A stretch of DNA of 64,000 bases from Natrialba hulunbeirensis JCM 10989 (lineage in GTDB: Archaea; Halobacteriota; Halobacteria; Halobacteriales; Natrialbaceae). The stretch spans positions 1 to 64,000 of the forward strand of contig NZ_AOIM01000006.1 in NCBI RefSeq assembly GCF_000337575.1, read 5' to 3'. Below the pieces are notes generated by a model. It was not told the origin of the DNA and searched no databases. It saw only the letters and a program-made list of their open reading frames with translations. The position numbers and the translations under genes are program-made. Positions 6,085 to 63,276 of this stretch are shown here, one piece after another (position 1 is the stretch's first letter; each line of letters begins with the position of its first letter).

Positions 6085-6150
6085 CTAGATTGATCGTGGC
6101 CTGCTAGTGGCCCGCCGGTGGCTTGCTAGCGGCTTGTTAGCGGCCTGGAA
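6085..6150. repeat. imperfect repeats with three CTAG sites
   Basis: Directly after the usp stop codon, three variants of gctag plus a related gttag recur at about 20-base spacing (CTAG at 6085, 6104 and 6126). The surrounding motif is ggcctgctagtgg / ggcttgctagcgg / ggcttgttagcgg. CTAG is normally avoided in haloarchaea. Confidence 0.7.
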
Positions 6151-17016: not shown

Positions 17017-17196
17017 CCGGGGTATCCGATCTACGTCGCTCACGCTCCCTTTTCGGCAACTGACCGTCTCTGTCGTTGCAGTTCCCATTTCGGTCCCGGT
17101 GGCGCCCTTCCACACCCAGTCCTCACATGTCGGCACACGGTTACAGTCGCGCGCTGACGAAGGAGCTAAGGGGCCGACGCCGACAGTGTGAAGCCA

Positions 17197-18276
17197 ATGG
17201 AGACGACCCACCGCGTTTTCGTCGGTGACTCTCGTGATCTCGCCGCAGTCGACGACGATACCGTCGAACTCGTCGTCACGTCCCCGCCGTACCCCATGAT
17301 CGAAATGTGGGACGACCTCTTTACCGAACTCGACCCTGCGATCGGCGACGCACTCGAGTCCGGCGCGGGTCGCCGGGCGTTCGAGGCGATGCACGCCCAA
17401 CTCGATCGCGTCTGGGACGAGGTCGAGCGAGTGCTCGTCGATGGTGGCATCGCCTGTATCAACGTCGGCGACGCGACCCGATCGGTCGACGGGAGCTTTC
17501 GCGTCTTCTCGAATCACGCGCGGGTACTCGAGGCGTTCGAGTCGCGCGGATTCGATCCGTTACCGGACGTGCTCTGGCGCAAGCCGACGAACAGCGCCGC
17601 GAAATTCATGGGAAGCGGGACGCTGCCGCCGAACGCGTACGTGACCCTCGAACACGAGTACGTGCTGCTCTTTCGCAACGGTGGCGACAGCCGCTCCTTC
17701 GAGCCCGGTGCGGACCGGCGATACGAGGCGGCGTACTTCTGGGAGGAGCGAAACAGTTGGTTCTCGGACGTCTGGACGGACGTACAGGGTGAGTTACAGC
17801 ACCTCGAGCGCCCCGACGATACCGATATCGAGCCCAGTGATCAGGACACAGACTTGCGTGACCGCTCTGCCGCCTATCCGTTCGAGATTCCCTACCGGCT
17901 CATCACGATGTACTCCGCCTACGGCGATACAGTACTCGACCCGTTCTGGGGGACCGGCACGACGACGCTAGCCGCGATGTGTGCTGGCCGGCACTCGATC
18001 GGGCAGGAACTCGAGTCGGGCTTTCGCGAGGTCTTCGACGAGCGAGTCGAGCGGGTGCCATCGCTTTCTCGATCAGTTGGGCGAGCGCGACTCGAGCGCC
18101 ATCGCGAGTTCGTCGAGCAGCGTCGCGCAGACGGAAAGGATCTGTCCTACGATGCGGTCCACTACGACACGTCAGTCGTCACCAAGATGGAGCGGGAACT
18201 CCTGCTCAGAGAGGTAGTTGAGACGGACACCGTCACGGACGGCTATCGCGCCGTTCACGAACCGTTGTTCGAGTAG
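17197..18276 (+). CDS. DNA methyltransferase, N4-cytosine type (candidate CTAG methylase)
   Basis: A 359-residue SAM-dependent DNA methylase. Catalytic motif IV is TSPPYPM near residue 28, and the SAM-binding motif I, DPFWGTGTTTLA, comes near 248. This order is that of beta-class amino-methyltransferases, and SPPY is typical of N4-methylcytosine enzymes. No restriction endonuclease gene is adjacent, so it is an orphan methylase. Haloarchaea carry a widely conserved orphan N4-cytosine methylase (Zim, HVO_0794 in Haloferax volcanii) that modifies CTAG, and size and architecture fit it, but the target cannot be read from this sequence. An in-frame GTG at 17188 is an alternative start adding three residues. 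It is a single gene followed by gamma-glutamyltransferase. Confidence 0.8.
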   Translation: METTHRVFVGDSRDLAAVDDDTVELVVTSPPYPMIEMWDDLFTELDPAIGDALESGAGRRAFEAMHAQLDRVWDEVERVLVDGGIACINVGDATRSVDGSFRVFSNHARVLEAFESRGFDPLPDVLWRKPTNSAAKFMGSGTLPPNAYVTLEHEYVLLFRNGGDSRSFEPGADRRYEAAYFWEERNSWFSDVWTDVQGELQHLERPDDTDIEPSDQDTDLRDRSAAYPFEIPYRLITMYSAYGDTVLDPFWGTGTTTLAAMCAGRHSIGQELESGFREVFDERVERVPSLSRSVGRARLERHREFVEQRRADGKDLSYDAVHYDTSVVTKMERELLLREVVETDTVTDGYRAVHEPLFE

Positions 18277-58371: not shown

Positions 58372-58878
58372 TCACTGATCACAGTTACAGACGCCGCCCT
58401 CACGAATCTGGTCGGTAACGTGTTGATGAATTGTACGGGCTAATCGATGCATCGTTTCGGCTTGCCGTTTCGTTGGATGGCGGCCGCCGTAGTAGCTGTC
58501 CGTCCGGTTATTCCCATACAGATTTTTGAGCTCATGTGTCAGCTCCCGTGTAAAGAGGCCGAACCGCGCCGCTTGATCATAACACCGATCGTGTGAATCG
58601 GTCTGGAAGTCGCGCAGTTCATCGCTGCCTTCCACGATGGCAAACGCCTCCAATGACCGTTCGATGATGCCGAAGCACAGTTCGACGACAGCGGTATAGT
58701 ACTCGCCACTTTCTATTTCCTTGACAACAGCGAGGAGACGACAGCCTTTGGTGAGTTGTGTTTTCCAGTCAGCGTCCGTGTCGATTTCCGGTTCCCGCGT
58801 CGGAATGCCGTAACCTTCCTGGTTGAACGCATCAATGGCTGCGTTGAGTGCCTCCCTAACAACGTTCGGGTCACTCAT
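58372..58878 (-). CDS. HEPN-like toxin partner
   Basis: A 168-residue all-helical protein. Its start overlaps the end of the upstream MNT gene (alternative ATG at 58884 or GTG at 58887). A four-helix-type pattern spans 5-160 with RTDSYYGGRH at 125-134, where haloarchaeal HEPN proteins have the RxxxYYGG-type motif; the classical Rx4-6H motif is not clear there (R145-x5-H151 fits). HEPN proteins of this class are RNases inhibited by their MNT partner. There are three Cys near the C-terminus (CNC). It is probably the second gene of a toxin-antitoxin pair. Confidence 0.65.
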   Translation of the reverse strand: MSDPNVVREALNAAIDAFNQEGYGIPTREPEIDTDADWKTQLTKGCRLLAVVKEIESGEYYTAVVELCFGIIERSLEAFAIVEGSDELRDFQTDSHDRCYDQAARFGLFTRELTHELKNLYGNNRTDSYYGGRHPTKRQAETMHRLARTIHQHVTDQIREGGVCNCDQ

Positions 58879-59563
58879 CGCCATCACCGTGCAGAATCAT
58901 ATTCCGGACAGTTATGAACTCGTCAGTTCGGTGGACAGCGATACCGTCACGAAGGACTTCTCGAAGTTCGTTCGCATAGTTCGGAATGGCTTGCAGACCC
59001 TCGACATCGATCTCGAACGCGTAGCGGTTCGCATCGAACGAATCCGATTCGAGCGATTGTCTGACACGGTTCGCCCGTCGCTGGTTGCCCATCCTGTTCT
59101 CACGCACTAACACCCAGAGGTCGATGTCGCTGCGGCGGTCTGCCTCCCCGCGGGCGACGCTTCCGTAGAGGACGACGGCTAGAACATCATCGAGTTCGTC
59201 CAACAACTCCTCCATTGCCGCCTTCACCGGAGCGTGGAACTCTGACTGTGGAATAGTAAGATAGGGTTCGTCTGGCTGCGTCAACCGGTCGCGGTTGATC
59301 TGTACGAGCCGCCGGGTCCCATCACGTTCCTCGACGACGAGGTCGTTGTCAGAGAGGATGTCGACCGTTTTTGTAATCGTTGGCCGCGTGTAATCGACTG
59401 TCTCTGCGATGTCCGTTATGGAGAACGATTCGTCGTGATGCCTTGATAAAAAGAGGAGGATCTCGTCAGTGGCCTCGCTTCTGAATAATCCACCGCTTTG
59501 CGGTGGTATATCGACTTCTATCCGTGTCCTATCAGTTGATGTACTGTTCGGGTGCGTTTTCAT
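58871..59563 (-). CDS. winged-helix/minimal nucleotidyltransferase fusion (MNT)
   Basis: A 230-residue protein. The N-terminal part (about 25-95) is a winged helix (ITDIAETVDYTRPTITKTVDILSDNDLVVEE), and the C-terminal part is a minimal nucleotidyltransferase: GS at 134-135 (VLYGSVARGE) and the catalytic DID at 146-148 (SDIDLWVLV). MNT antitoxins of MNT-HEPN pairs AMPylate their HEPN partner. The HTH suggests it also represses its own promoter, where a palindrome overlaps the start. It ends within the HEPN start, so the two are translated together. Confidence 0.78.
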   Translation of the reverse strand: MKTHPNSTSTDRTRIEVDIPPQSGGLFRSEATDEILLFLSRHHDESFSITDIAETVDYTRPTITKTVDILSDNDLVVEERDGTRRLVQINRDRLTQPDEPYLTIPQSEFHAPVKAAMEELLDELDDVLAVVLYGSVARGEADRRSDIDLWVLVRENRMGNQRRANRVRQSLESDSFDANRYAFEIDVEGLQAIPNYANELREVLRDGIAVHRTDEFITVRNMILHGDGDE

Positions 59564-59817: not shown

Positions 59818-59850
59818 CTTTTATTTGAGAAAATTATAACGGGACGGTCG

Positions 59851-61476
59851 ATGTCAGATGCGTTAACTGATATCGGTCCACTGGTGAGAATGAGCAACTC
59901 GACATCATCACCGACAGCTACCCGGAGGCACAGCAGTCGAAATCGGATGCCTCGCGCCATCCTCCACAAGAAGGTCCTCGACGTCGCCGCCTCCCGACCG
60001 GACGCCTCGCTGGAGGAACTCGCCGACGAGGTCAGCGGTGCAACCGTCTCGATCGTCGAGCAGGTACTCGAGGAGTACGGTGATCCAGGCGAGACGGCAG
60101 CCGAGAGTGCTGCGAGTACGAGCAGTGGCGCTACCGGGAACGAAGAGGGTGACGAGGACAGGTCGGCGTCACAGGGAGCGACAGAGACAGACGGAGAGGA
60201 TGGGGACGAGCGTGAGGGTGAGGATGAAGAAGTGAGTGTGAGCAACGAGGAAGATGTAGCCGCGGGCACAGAGGAGGAAGCGAGCGCAGACGAAGACGAG
60301 AACCAGTGCATTGCAGATCCACCCACCGACCGAGATTCTAACGACGATGCGGGGGAGACGCCTGTTTCTATGAATGACGCACCAACAGCCGACGCATCAA
60401 CGACCTCGGACACAGCCGACGATTCGACGATGACCACCGACAACTCGACGGACTCGACACCCGACGTACCGACCGACCCGACAGCACTGACGCCACGCCA
60501 GCGCGAAACGCTCCAGGAGATTGCCGCCCGGCCTGACGCAACGCAGGCCGCACTCGCCGAGACGCTCGGCGTCACCAGCGCGACGATCAGCCAGCGGGTG
60601 AACTCGATCGACGGCTTCGAGTGGTCGCGCCGACGCGAGTTCGTCGCGAACCTGTTCGACGACGAAGACGGTGCAGTGGAGACCGCTCGTGATCGCGAGG
60701 GTGCTGGCGAGTCCGACTCCAGCGCTGCAGATGATGTGGATGGCGAGGGAGTACTCGAGTCCGAGTCGGAATCGGCGGTGACCGGGAACGGGAATGGGAC
60801 CGAGACCGAGACTGAGAGTGAGATCGAGAGTGGGACGGAGCCCGTGGACAGTGACGCTGTTGGCTCTGCGTCGGAGGCTGCCGATTCGATTGGCGATGGG
60901 ACTGGACAGCGAGTTGCTGCGTCCACATCCGAGTCTGAGTCTAAGTCTGCTGCTGGGGATGGGGCTGGGAGCGAGCACAGCGAGAAAGAATCCACCGGAA
61001 GCACGTCCGAATCGCGTCGGTTCGACCGCCAGGAGACACAGACACGGGCTGACGAGCCGGAGGAGACGACCGACTCCGTTGCAAGTTCCGAGTCGGAGGC
61101 GGAAGTGAGACTGGAACCCGGCATAGACTCCCCCACAGAGTCGGGCACAGACGCGGGTGCAGGCACCGTCGACACCACCAGCACCAACACAGAAACTACC
61201 GTCACTAGCACTGCCAACCCAGAGACCAACGCCACTATCGACACCCACACCCTCGCCACTGACATCGCCACACTCGCCGAGCAACTCGAGTCACTCGAGT
61301 CCACCGTCCGTTCTGCGTCGTCCGAACGCCAGGACTGTCTCGCTGATCCCGAGTTCGCACACAAGGTCCTGCGCGCGTGCTTCGACGCCGAGCACATCAC
61401 CGAGGAAGACGAGGTGCGACTGCTGCGAGAGATCGCTGGTGAGGGTGGGGACTCGAGTTTGGGTTCCGCGGAGTAG
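59851..61476 (+). CDS. acidic protein with two winged-helix segments
   Basis: A 541-residue protein. The N-terminal winged helix covers LHKKVLDVAASRPDASLEELADEVSGATVSIVEQVLEEYG. A second one, LTPRQRETLQEIAARPDATQAALAETLGVTSATISQRVNSI, comes near residues 215-270. Between and after them are long acidic, Ser/Thr/Gly-rich linkers with repeat character. A final helical part (ATLAEQLESLESTVRSASSER and PEFAHKVLRACFDAEHI) could dimerise. It is probably a DNA-binding regulator. Alternative starts are the ATGs at 59890 and later; 59851 is favoured by the TATA box spacing. Targets are unknown. Confidence 0.7.
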   Translation: MSDALTDIGPLVRMSNSTSSPTATRRHSSRNRMPRAILHKKVLDVAASRPDASLEELADEVSGATVSIVEQVLEEYGDPGETAAESAASTSSGATGNEEGDEDRSASQGATETDGEDGDEREGEDEEVSVSNEEDVAAGTEEEASADEDENQCIADPPTDRDSNDDAGETPVSMNDAPTADASTTSDTADDSTMTTDNSTDSTPDVPTDPTALTPRQRETLQEIAARPDATQAALAETLGVTSATISQRVNSIDGFEWSRRREFVANLFDDEDGAVETARDREGAGESDSSAADDVDGEGVLESESESAVTGNGNGTETETESEIESGTEPVDSDAVGSASEAADSIGDGTGQRVAASTSESESKSAAGDGAGSEHSEKESTGSTSESRRFDRQETQTRADEPEETTDSVASSESEAEVRLEPGIDSPTESGTDAGAGTVDTTSTNTETTVTSTANPETNATIDTHTLATDIATLAEQLESLESTVRSASSERQDCLADPEFAHKVLRACFDAEHITEEDEVRLLREIAGEGGDSSLGSAE

Positions 61477-61490
61477 CGATCGTAGTCAGC

Positions 61491-61524
61491 CTAGTACTAG
61501 TCAGGAGAGAGACGCTAGTACTAG
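61491..61524. promoter_or_regulatory. paired CTAGTACTAG palindromes
   Basis: CTAGTACTAG at 61491-61500 and again at 61515-61524, separated by 14 bases (24-base period). Each is a perfect 10-bp palindrome containing two CTAG sites. A further CTAG lies at 61614. Confidence 0.85.
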
Positions 61525-61681
61525 GACCCCCGTCTCGGTAGCGTCACCGTCGATGGGTTGTCGCGCTTTCAGAGTCGGAATCCGTCGCCGAGTGTGACTG
61601 TTCACTGGTCGTCCTAGTGTCGGCTTCGAATCCGAGCGCTCGCGCCGGTTTGGCGGGCATCCAGCATGGACAGGGGATGGC

Positions 61682-61688
61682 TATTTAT
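61682..61688 (+). promoter_or_regulatory. TATA box of aglF
   Basis: TATTTAT centred 28 bases before the ATG at 61713, consistent with a leaderless transcript. Confidence 0.6.
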
Positions 61689-61712: not shown

Positions 61713-62486
61713 ATGCAAGCGGTCGTTCTCGCAGCCGGAAAGGGGACTCGCCTCCAGCCGCTCACCGACGACAAGCCGAAGGCGCTCGTCGAAGTCGACG
61801 GGCGGCCGATCATCGAGGACGTCTTCGATAACCTCATCGCGATCGGTGCGACGGAGTTGCTCGTCGTCGTCGGCCACCTGAAAGAGCAGTTGATCAACCG
61901 CTACAACGACGAGTACCGTGGCGTGCCGATCACCTACGCCCACCAGCGCGAGCAGTTGGGGCTCGCCCACGCCATCCTCCAGGTCGAGTCGCTCGTCGAG
62001 GACGAGTTCATGCTGATGCTCGGCGATAACGTCTTCCGGTCGAACCTCGGCGACGTGGTGACCCGCCAGCGCGAAGACCGCGCAGATGCGGCGTTCCTGG
62101 TCGAGCAGGTGCCCTACGAGGAAGCCTCGCGCTACGGCGTGCTCGATACGAACGAGTACGGCGAAATCGTCGAGGTCGTCGAGAAACCCGACGACCCGCC
62201 GTCGAATCTCGTGATGACCGGGTTCTACACGTTCACGCCCGCGATCTTTCATGCGTGTCGGCTCGTTCAGCCGAGCGACCGCGGCGAGTACGAACTCTCG
62301 GACGCGATCGATCTGTTGATCCAGTCCGGGCGAACGATCGACGCGATCCGGATGGAGGGCTGGCGCGTCGACGTCGGCTATCCCGAGGACCGGGATCAGG
62401 CGACGGCGTTCCTGCAGGGGGAAGCGGTCCCACCAGCGGAAGTCCCCGGGTCGTCGGTTAGTGCGCCGGAACTCGAGACTGACTGA
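61713..62486 (+). CDS. aglF: glucose-1-phosphate nucleotidyltransferase (AglF-like)
   Basis: A 257-residue nucleotidyltransferase of the RmlA/GalU type that makes a nucleotide-sugar (UDP-glucose in Haloferax AglF) for N-glycosylation. The signature MQAVVLAAGKGTRLQPLTDDKPKALVEVDGRPII is complete, followed by LMLGDNVF and VVEKPDDPPSNLVMTGFY. The start is the ATG at 61713, strongly supported by the N-terminal motif and by the TATA box; the open frame continues upstream. It lies before a methyltransferase and aglB. Confidence 0.85.
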   Translation: MQAVVLAAGKGTRLQPLTDDKPKALVEVDGRPIIEDVFDNLIAIGATELLVVVGHLKEQLINRYNDEYRGVPITYAHQREQLGLAHAILQVESLVEDEFMLMLGDNVFRSNLGDVVTRQREDRADAAFLVEQVPYEEASRYGVLDTNEYGEIVEVVEKPDDPPSNLVMTGFYTFTPAIFHACRLVQPSDRGEYELSDAIDLLIQSGRTIDAIRMEGWRVDVGYPEDRDQATAFLQGEAVPPAEVPGSSVSAPELETD

Positions 62487-62559: not shown

Positions 62560-63276
62560 ATGAGTGCCATCCGTGATTCTATTACGCGCTTTAATTCTAG
62601 AATCGACGACTATCTCGCACCTTCGAAACCCAATCGAATGCGTGTCTACCGTTCAATAATTACTGAAACAGATTTTTCAAAAGCACTCCACTTTGGTTCT
62701 GGGCGAGACAAGAGACATCTCGGATCAGAACTCTCTTCGGCGGACAGGGAAGTTATCGCTCTTGATCCCGATCCGCACGGACTAGAGCAAAACGACACAC
62801 CAAAGAGAGTACTCGGCGACGGACAACGACTGCCGTTCGCAGACAATACCTTTGATCTCGTCTTCTCAGAATACGTTTTCGAACATCTCCCAGAGCCGGA
62901 ACTGGCCCTCCGTGAAATCAATAGAGTACTCGAACCTGGCGGAGCCGTCGTTATTCTTGTTCCAAACCCCAAACATTACTACGCTAAGATTGCTGATCTG
63001 ACTCCGTTCTGGTTCCACCATCTCTGGTTTTCACTTCAAGGAAACACATCTGCCGACGAGGATAAGTTCCCGACACAATTTGAGTGGGGAACGTACACTG
63101 ATATACAGAGTGGCGCATTCGATTGGGAAATAGAGCGACTCTATAGTTTCCCAGGCCCAACAGGATATACGAAAATCCTCCCAGTCCATTTTCTCTTTAC
63201 CCTCTTTGACAGAGCAATGAAGAACAGACCACAGCATCATGTAGCTTACCTCGTGTATTATCAAAAGCAGGAGTAG
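62560..63276 (+). CDS. class I SAM-dependent methyltransferase
   Basis: A 238-residue Rossmann-fold methyltransferase. SAM-binding motif I is ALHFGSGRDKRHLG (G-x-G), then VIALDPDPHGLEQND, LPFADNTFDLVFSEYVFEHLPEP, and INRVLEPGGAVVILVPNP. It lies between aglF and aglB, so it may modify a glycan sugar (Haloferax AglP methylates the hexuronic acid). Codons end in A or T more often than in neighbours (for example gattctattacg), suggesting a different origin. The substrate is not determinable here. Confidence 0.75.
   Translation: MSAIRDSITRFNSRIDDYLAPSKPNRMRVYRSIITETDFSKALHFGSGRDKRHLGSELSSADREVIALDPDPHGLEQNDTPKRVLGDGQRLPFADNTFDLVFSEYVFEHLPEPELALREINRVLEPGGAVVILVPNPKHYYAKIADLTPFWFHHLWFSLQGNTSADEDKFPTQFEWGTYTDIQSGAFDWEIERLYSFPGPTGYTKILPVHFLFTLFDRAMKNRPQHHVAYLVYYQKQE

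Follow-up and report, generated by a model that had tools for sequence, protein, structure and literature searches.

The DNA analysed here, termed the window, is a 64,000-bp stretch of Natrialba hulunbeirensis JCM 10989 (contig NZ_AOIM01000006.1, positions 1 to 64,000). Towards its right end, a group of CTAG sites lies between a gene encoding a protein with two helix-turn-helix (HTH) domains and aglF, the first gene of a protein-glycosylation cluster (Table 1). An earlier note on this DNA had described two CTAGTACTAG palindromes at this junction, 24 bp apart from start to start, together with a further CTAG, and all three were found. The array is located 5' of a conserved TATA-like box, and the genes that follow it comprise aglF, a methyltransferase gene, an AglB-like gene and a sugar transferase gene. 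Just past the window (G000:C6:68642-69964), a protein that carries an eCIS core domain (PF13699) is encoded 3' of the glycosylation genes, beside several proteins without a Pfam match. A possible toxin-antitoxin pair of the HEPN/MNT type lies at 58372-59563, where an MntA-like nucleotidyltransferase (below cut-off) bearing an HTH at its N-terminus overlaps a small protein that matches nothing in Pfam.

Table 1 Positions of the features discussed, in window coordinates
Feature	Position	Strand	Remarks
Second CTAG cluster	6085..6129	.	between convergent genes; not conserved, judged unrelated
N4/N6 DNA methyltransferase (N6_N4_Mtase, PF01555)	17188..18276	+	E 1.2e-33; near-universal family ortholog
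Two-HTH regulator gene	59848..61476	+	start codon uncertain, 59848 to 59944; 542 aa from 59848
N-terminal HTH-like three-helix domain, residues 36-77	59953..60078	+	pLDDT above 90
Second HTH domain (HTH_24/MarR/AsnC type) and following helices, residues 216-279	60493..60684	+
C-terminal helices, residues 461-529	61228..61434	+	likely oligomerisation (inferred)
CTAGTACTAG palindrome, copy 1	61491..61500	.	one of the genome's only two; in five of six other Natrialba genomes
CTAGTACTAG palindrome, copy 2	61515..61524	.	24 bp from copy 1; 20, 25 or 10 in relatives
Third CTAG (GTCGTCCTAGTGTCGGC)	61614..61617	.	about 100 bp 5' of the aglF ATG; invariant in four Natrialba
TATA-like box (TATTTAT), aglF promoter	61682..61688	+	unchanged in four Natrialba
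aglF, UTP--glucose-1-phosphate uridylyltransferase	61713..62486	+	NF041313, above cut-off
SAM-dependent methyltransferase (Methyltransf_11)	62560..63276	+
aglB-like gene (AglB_L1 domain; AglB-like oligosaccharyltransferase)	from about 63345, past window end

CTAG is rare in this DNA, as had been proposed: the window holds 34 copies versus 101 (sd 10) in dinucleotide shuffles, an approximately threefold under-representation. The HTH-aglF junction holds the only two copies of CTAGTACTAG in the entire genome (4,159,606 bp), where CTAG triplets with gaps of at most 30 bp are found at only about eight places. Shuffling of the 242-bp HTH-aglF gap alone, a hard test since the CT, TA and AG content of the gap is retained, gave an expectation of 1.46 CTAGs against the 5 observed (p = 0.004). 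The earlier note had also listed three CTAGs in the second cluster, and these are present at 6085, 6104 and 6126; its suggestion that the two clusters represent the same phenomenon was not borne out, as the second is species-specific and not conserved even in sister species, with 0-1 CTAG at this position in three close Natrialba genomes and none in three more distant ones.

Outside the domains listed in Table 1, the two-HTH protein consists of disordered, acidic linkers of low complexity and a C-terminal coiled coil bearing a conserved helical tail, and the whole-protein structure model is mostly disordered (mean pLDDT 58). Structure searches with its domains returned generic HTH folds only, none at a significant E-value, and no close solved structure of the protein was found. 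Kinship of the second HTH with TrpR, an idea taken from the CTAG core of the Trp operator, found no support, as the PDB sequence matches up to E 10 included no Trp repressor. A chain with two DNA-binding domains and a coiled coil would suit binding to multiple sites.

Within the genus, CTAGTACTAG also precedes the aglF ortholog in five of the six other Natrialba genomes. Two copies are spaced by 20 bp in G005, 25 bp in G003 and 10 bp (abutting) in G001 and G002, and the gaps between paired copies before aglF across the other Natrialba are 0, 10, 14 and 15 bp. The pair is kept in G001 and G002 although the remainder of the gap is very different, and G004 carries one CTAGTACTAG with additional CTAGs surrounding an inserted 84-bp element; no copy of the HTH gene and no array was detected in G006, the sixth genome. 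Among the four closest genomes, neither the third CTAG nor the TATTTAT box varies. A scan of 84,980 genomes for tandem pairs gave haloarchaeal matches in four Natrialba only, the others being scattered and mostly bacterial. The element in G004 (locus L159, 10716-10801) is an 84-bp imperfect palindrome (CTATAGTAGCCACTGC...GTTACTAT) resembling a MITE; the repeat also adjoins the arrays of G001 and G002 and has 19-47 matches per Natrialba genome. In G003 (locus L158), an IS200/IS605-like palindrome (CCTCCGTCTTCAGGCGGAGG) abuts the array directly 5' of the first CTAGTACTAG.

Orthologs of the HTH gene were sought in 125 genomes of the family Natrialbaceae, followed by retrieval of their neighbourhoods. 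A junction was counted where aglF or a DUF1616 gene (PF07760) lay at most 1 kb after the HTH gene in the same direction. Such gaps usually contain 3-9 CTAGs, and they occur in seven genera (g1, g10, g13, g15, g16, g20 and g23). In total, the 26 gaps hold 138 CTAGs in 9.6 kb (14.4 per kb), an approximately 10-fold excess over 34 control aglF promoters away from the HTH gene, which hold 15 in 10.2 kb (1.5 per kb; 0-3 each). Dinucleotide-keeping shuffles of the same 26 gaps gave an expectation of 43, with a maximum of 66 in 1000 shuffles. Clusters of at least 4 CTAGs per 150 bp numbered 24 on the 3' side of the HTH gene (within about 360 bp of its stop codon, with one cluster farther only owing to a frameshifted gene), versus 12 in the remaining ~0.9 Mb of the same neighbourhoods. 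Where aglF lies elsewhere and the DUF1616 gene comes next, the arrays still stay with the HTH gene; in G067, genes for an epimerase and a glycosyltransferase lie within a few kilobases after the DUF1616 gene. Spacing, site number and flanks differ among arrays, so that the conservation is one of kind, and the distance from the array to the next start codon is variable.

Arrays were absent from several related settings. In G061, G070 and G075 the HTH gene is followed by the DUF1616 gene with one CTAG only, and no array was found beside HTH orthologs in other families (40 loci), beside short paralogs of the HTH gene, or at distant aglF promoters in genomes possessing the HTH gene. Conversely, an array is present in G076, where the neighbouring HTH gene is probably broken and neither aglF nor a DUF1616 gene follows directly. 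The array is thus not a fixed feature of aglF promoters, given the 0-3 CTAGs of the 34 controls, nor of the HTH gene, given its 40 array-less orthologs outside the family, and the HTH protein therefore does not always need one. A CTAG is also present at exactly -13 from the DUF1616 start in G061, G070, G072, G073 and G075 (loci L124, L126, L127, L128 and L129), with or without an upstream array.

A palindromic form, GYA-CTAG-TRC, is preferred across the sites, which often overlap as CTAGTACTAG. After lineage weighting, G(-3), Y(-2), A(-1) and the mirrored T, R and C after CTAG are present at 51-75% per position versus 31-56% at other CTAGs of the neighbourhoods (A(-1), 58% versus 34%; G(-3), 51% versus 31%), a preference partly produced by the 6-bp CTAGTACTAG doublets themselves. 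Among the site spacings, 6 bp (the CTAGTACTAG doublets) is the commonest, followed by 12 and 19, then 8. In genus g10, where five arrays could be aligned, 7 of 11 CTAG sites are invariant, whereas among the gap's other tetramers this holds for 57 of 256.

The recurrence of this arrangement in seven genera makes the junction cluster very probably a real control element and not a product of chance. The proposal of a regulatory element in the earlier note is thereby well supported: arrays are found at the same junction in all seven genera and are absent at control promoters, and the N. hulunbeirensis array lies 5' of a conserved TATA-like box. On balance, we favour an operator with multiple sites that controls surface-glycan genes and to which the adjacent two-HTH protein most likely binds, consistent with repeated palindromic sites that share flanks within promoter DNA and that persist at the same junction beyond alignable sequence. 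Gene linkage points to the HTH protein as the candidate binder. In the proposed mechanism, an oligomeric transcription factor would bind cooperatively to the CTAG-centred palindromes 5' of the aglF TATA box; the likeliest factor is the protein encoded immediately 5' of the array, with its two HTH domains and C-terminal coiled coil. Expression of the surface-glycan operon (aglF, methyltransferase and aglB) would be set by this binding, as would that of the DUF1616 gene occupying the same place in other genera. The location of the sites 5' of the TATA box slightly favours activation over repression. Marking of the sites with m4C may modulate binding, although the evidence does not require it. 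In relatives, some lone copies of CTAGTACTAG lie near flippase, glycosyltransferase or ABC transporter genes, ~5-70 kb from the HTH gene; some of these are within coding sequence, and the islands have raised CTAG density, so that they are only suggestive of a wide regulon and are not counted as proof. No wide regulon is seen, because distant aglF promoters in HTH-bearing genomes lack arrays.

Methylation sensitivity, which the earlier note had suggested, is possible, and it was considered in light of the candidate CTAG methyltransferase that the note had placed in the window, where a gene of the N6_N4_Mtase family is indeed present. Its predicted product of 362 aa contains TSPPYPM and matches what has been described for the orphan CTAG methyltransferase of haloarchaea (Zim/HVO_0794, cHG U), namely a Type II N4/N6 fold, an SPPY motif and a length of about 300-364 aa (size and motif from PMC5867850). 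An ortholog is present in 121 of 125 family genomes, including 111 of 111 complete ones, making it near-universal within the family; comparison with phage records gave distant relatives only, with no CTAG-specific annotation. The orphan methyltransferase might m4C-mark the clustered sites such that methylated, hemimethylated or protected states alter factor binding, placing glycosylation under epigenetic or replication-timed control. Each site is a target of the conserved haloarchaeal methyltransferase family (PMC5867850, PMC6471742), for which the window holds the near-universal ortholog, and in Haloferax lucertense, where CTAG is enriched in the DNA before transcription starts, a regulatory role has been proposed (PMC11001535). 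We nevertheless regard such a switch as unlikely. The methyltransferase occurs in every complete family genome, with or without an array, and therefore neither predicts nor excludes arrays; these are confined to HTH-linked junctions, and their predictor is the adjacent HTH gene. In addition, a methyltransferase target needs no flank preference beyond CTAG, and H. volcanii shows no growth defect on losing CTAG methylation (PMC5867850). A combined version, in which the orphan methyltransferase and the two-HTH regulator compete for the clustered CTAGs and the methylation state sets N-glycosylation, appears distinctly doubtful; if true, it would give the orphan methyltransferase a concrete regulatory target.

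The arrays might instead reflect mobile elements that target CTAG or TA and have accumulated at, or prefer, this junction, in which case the CTAG-rich DNA would be a target or relic of insertion with no regulatory role. A passage of PMC6471742 cites CTAG as a known insertion sequence target, the multicopy 84-bp palindrome is found within the array of G004 and next to that of G001, and the IS200/IS605-like palindrome adjoins the G003 array. However, the spacers change around perfect CTAGTACTAG doublets and CTAG tetramers that are retained, and aglF promoters away from the HTH gene have no arrays, leaving this explanation very improbable. We give similarly little credence to the array as part of the HTH transcript (a 3' end, terminator or RNA feature) in place of an operator for the next gene. 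Arrays can begin at the HTH stop codon itself (G029, G067), and the G076 array does without a following aglF or DUF1616 gene; yet HTH genes that lack these neighbours have no arrays, whether in this family or in others. Visual inspection shows neither an evident T-tract nor a hairpin design, and the distance from the HTH stop codon to the array ranges from about 0 to 300 bp. Isolated intergenic CTAGs at control promoters, and the chance-like appearance of the window's cluster at 6085, are in keeping with accidental clustering in intergenic DNA, which is already contradicted by the recurrence in seven genera and the excess over control promoters and is scarcely credible for the junction.

The operator array can be compared with several known systems. 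CTAG clusters upstream of orc1/cdc6 genes are a published, origin-linked haloarchaeal class (Blow et al. 2016, PMC4752239), and three are present in this genome outside the window, ~0.5-1.7 kb upstream of such genes (G000:C34:76116-76433, C39:79687-79707 and C43:98183-98244). They likewise cluster the target of an orphan methyltransferase in non-coding DNA, whereas the aglF array recurs with the HTH gene and a glycan operon, and its CTAGTACTAG doublets are absent from the rest of the genome. An origin-type cluster was ruled out for the aglF array, as all Cdc6_C matches are on other contigs and none on C6. The Trp and Met repressor operators of E. coli, which have a CTAG core (PMC1166578), also present repeated CTAG-centred sites in a promoter region, but the proteins are different and the aglF sites lie far upstream of the TATA box. 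The H. lucertense enrichment (PMC11001535) similarly places CTAG within haloarchaeal promoter DNA; it is a statistical trend seen across the genome within 75 bp of starts, in contrast to a dense and conserved array at one junction.

A text search of the literature for aglF, aglB and transcription factor returned nothing titled as a regulation study. For surface glycosylation in archaea, the two-HTH protein offers a candidate regulator of transcription. Why CTAG is scarce in haloarchaea and what their conserved CTAG methyltransferase does have been stated as open questions (PMC6471742), and a 2024 study described regulation by cytosine methylation as experimentally untested in archaea (PMC11001535). 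With a defined and conserved array before N-glycosylation genes, a candidate binder and a deletable methyltransferase, both questions become directly testable.
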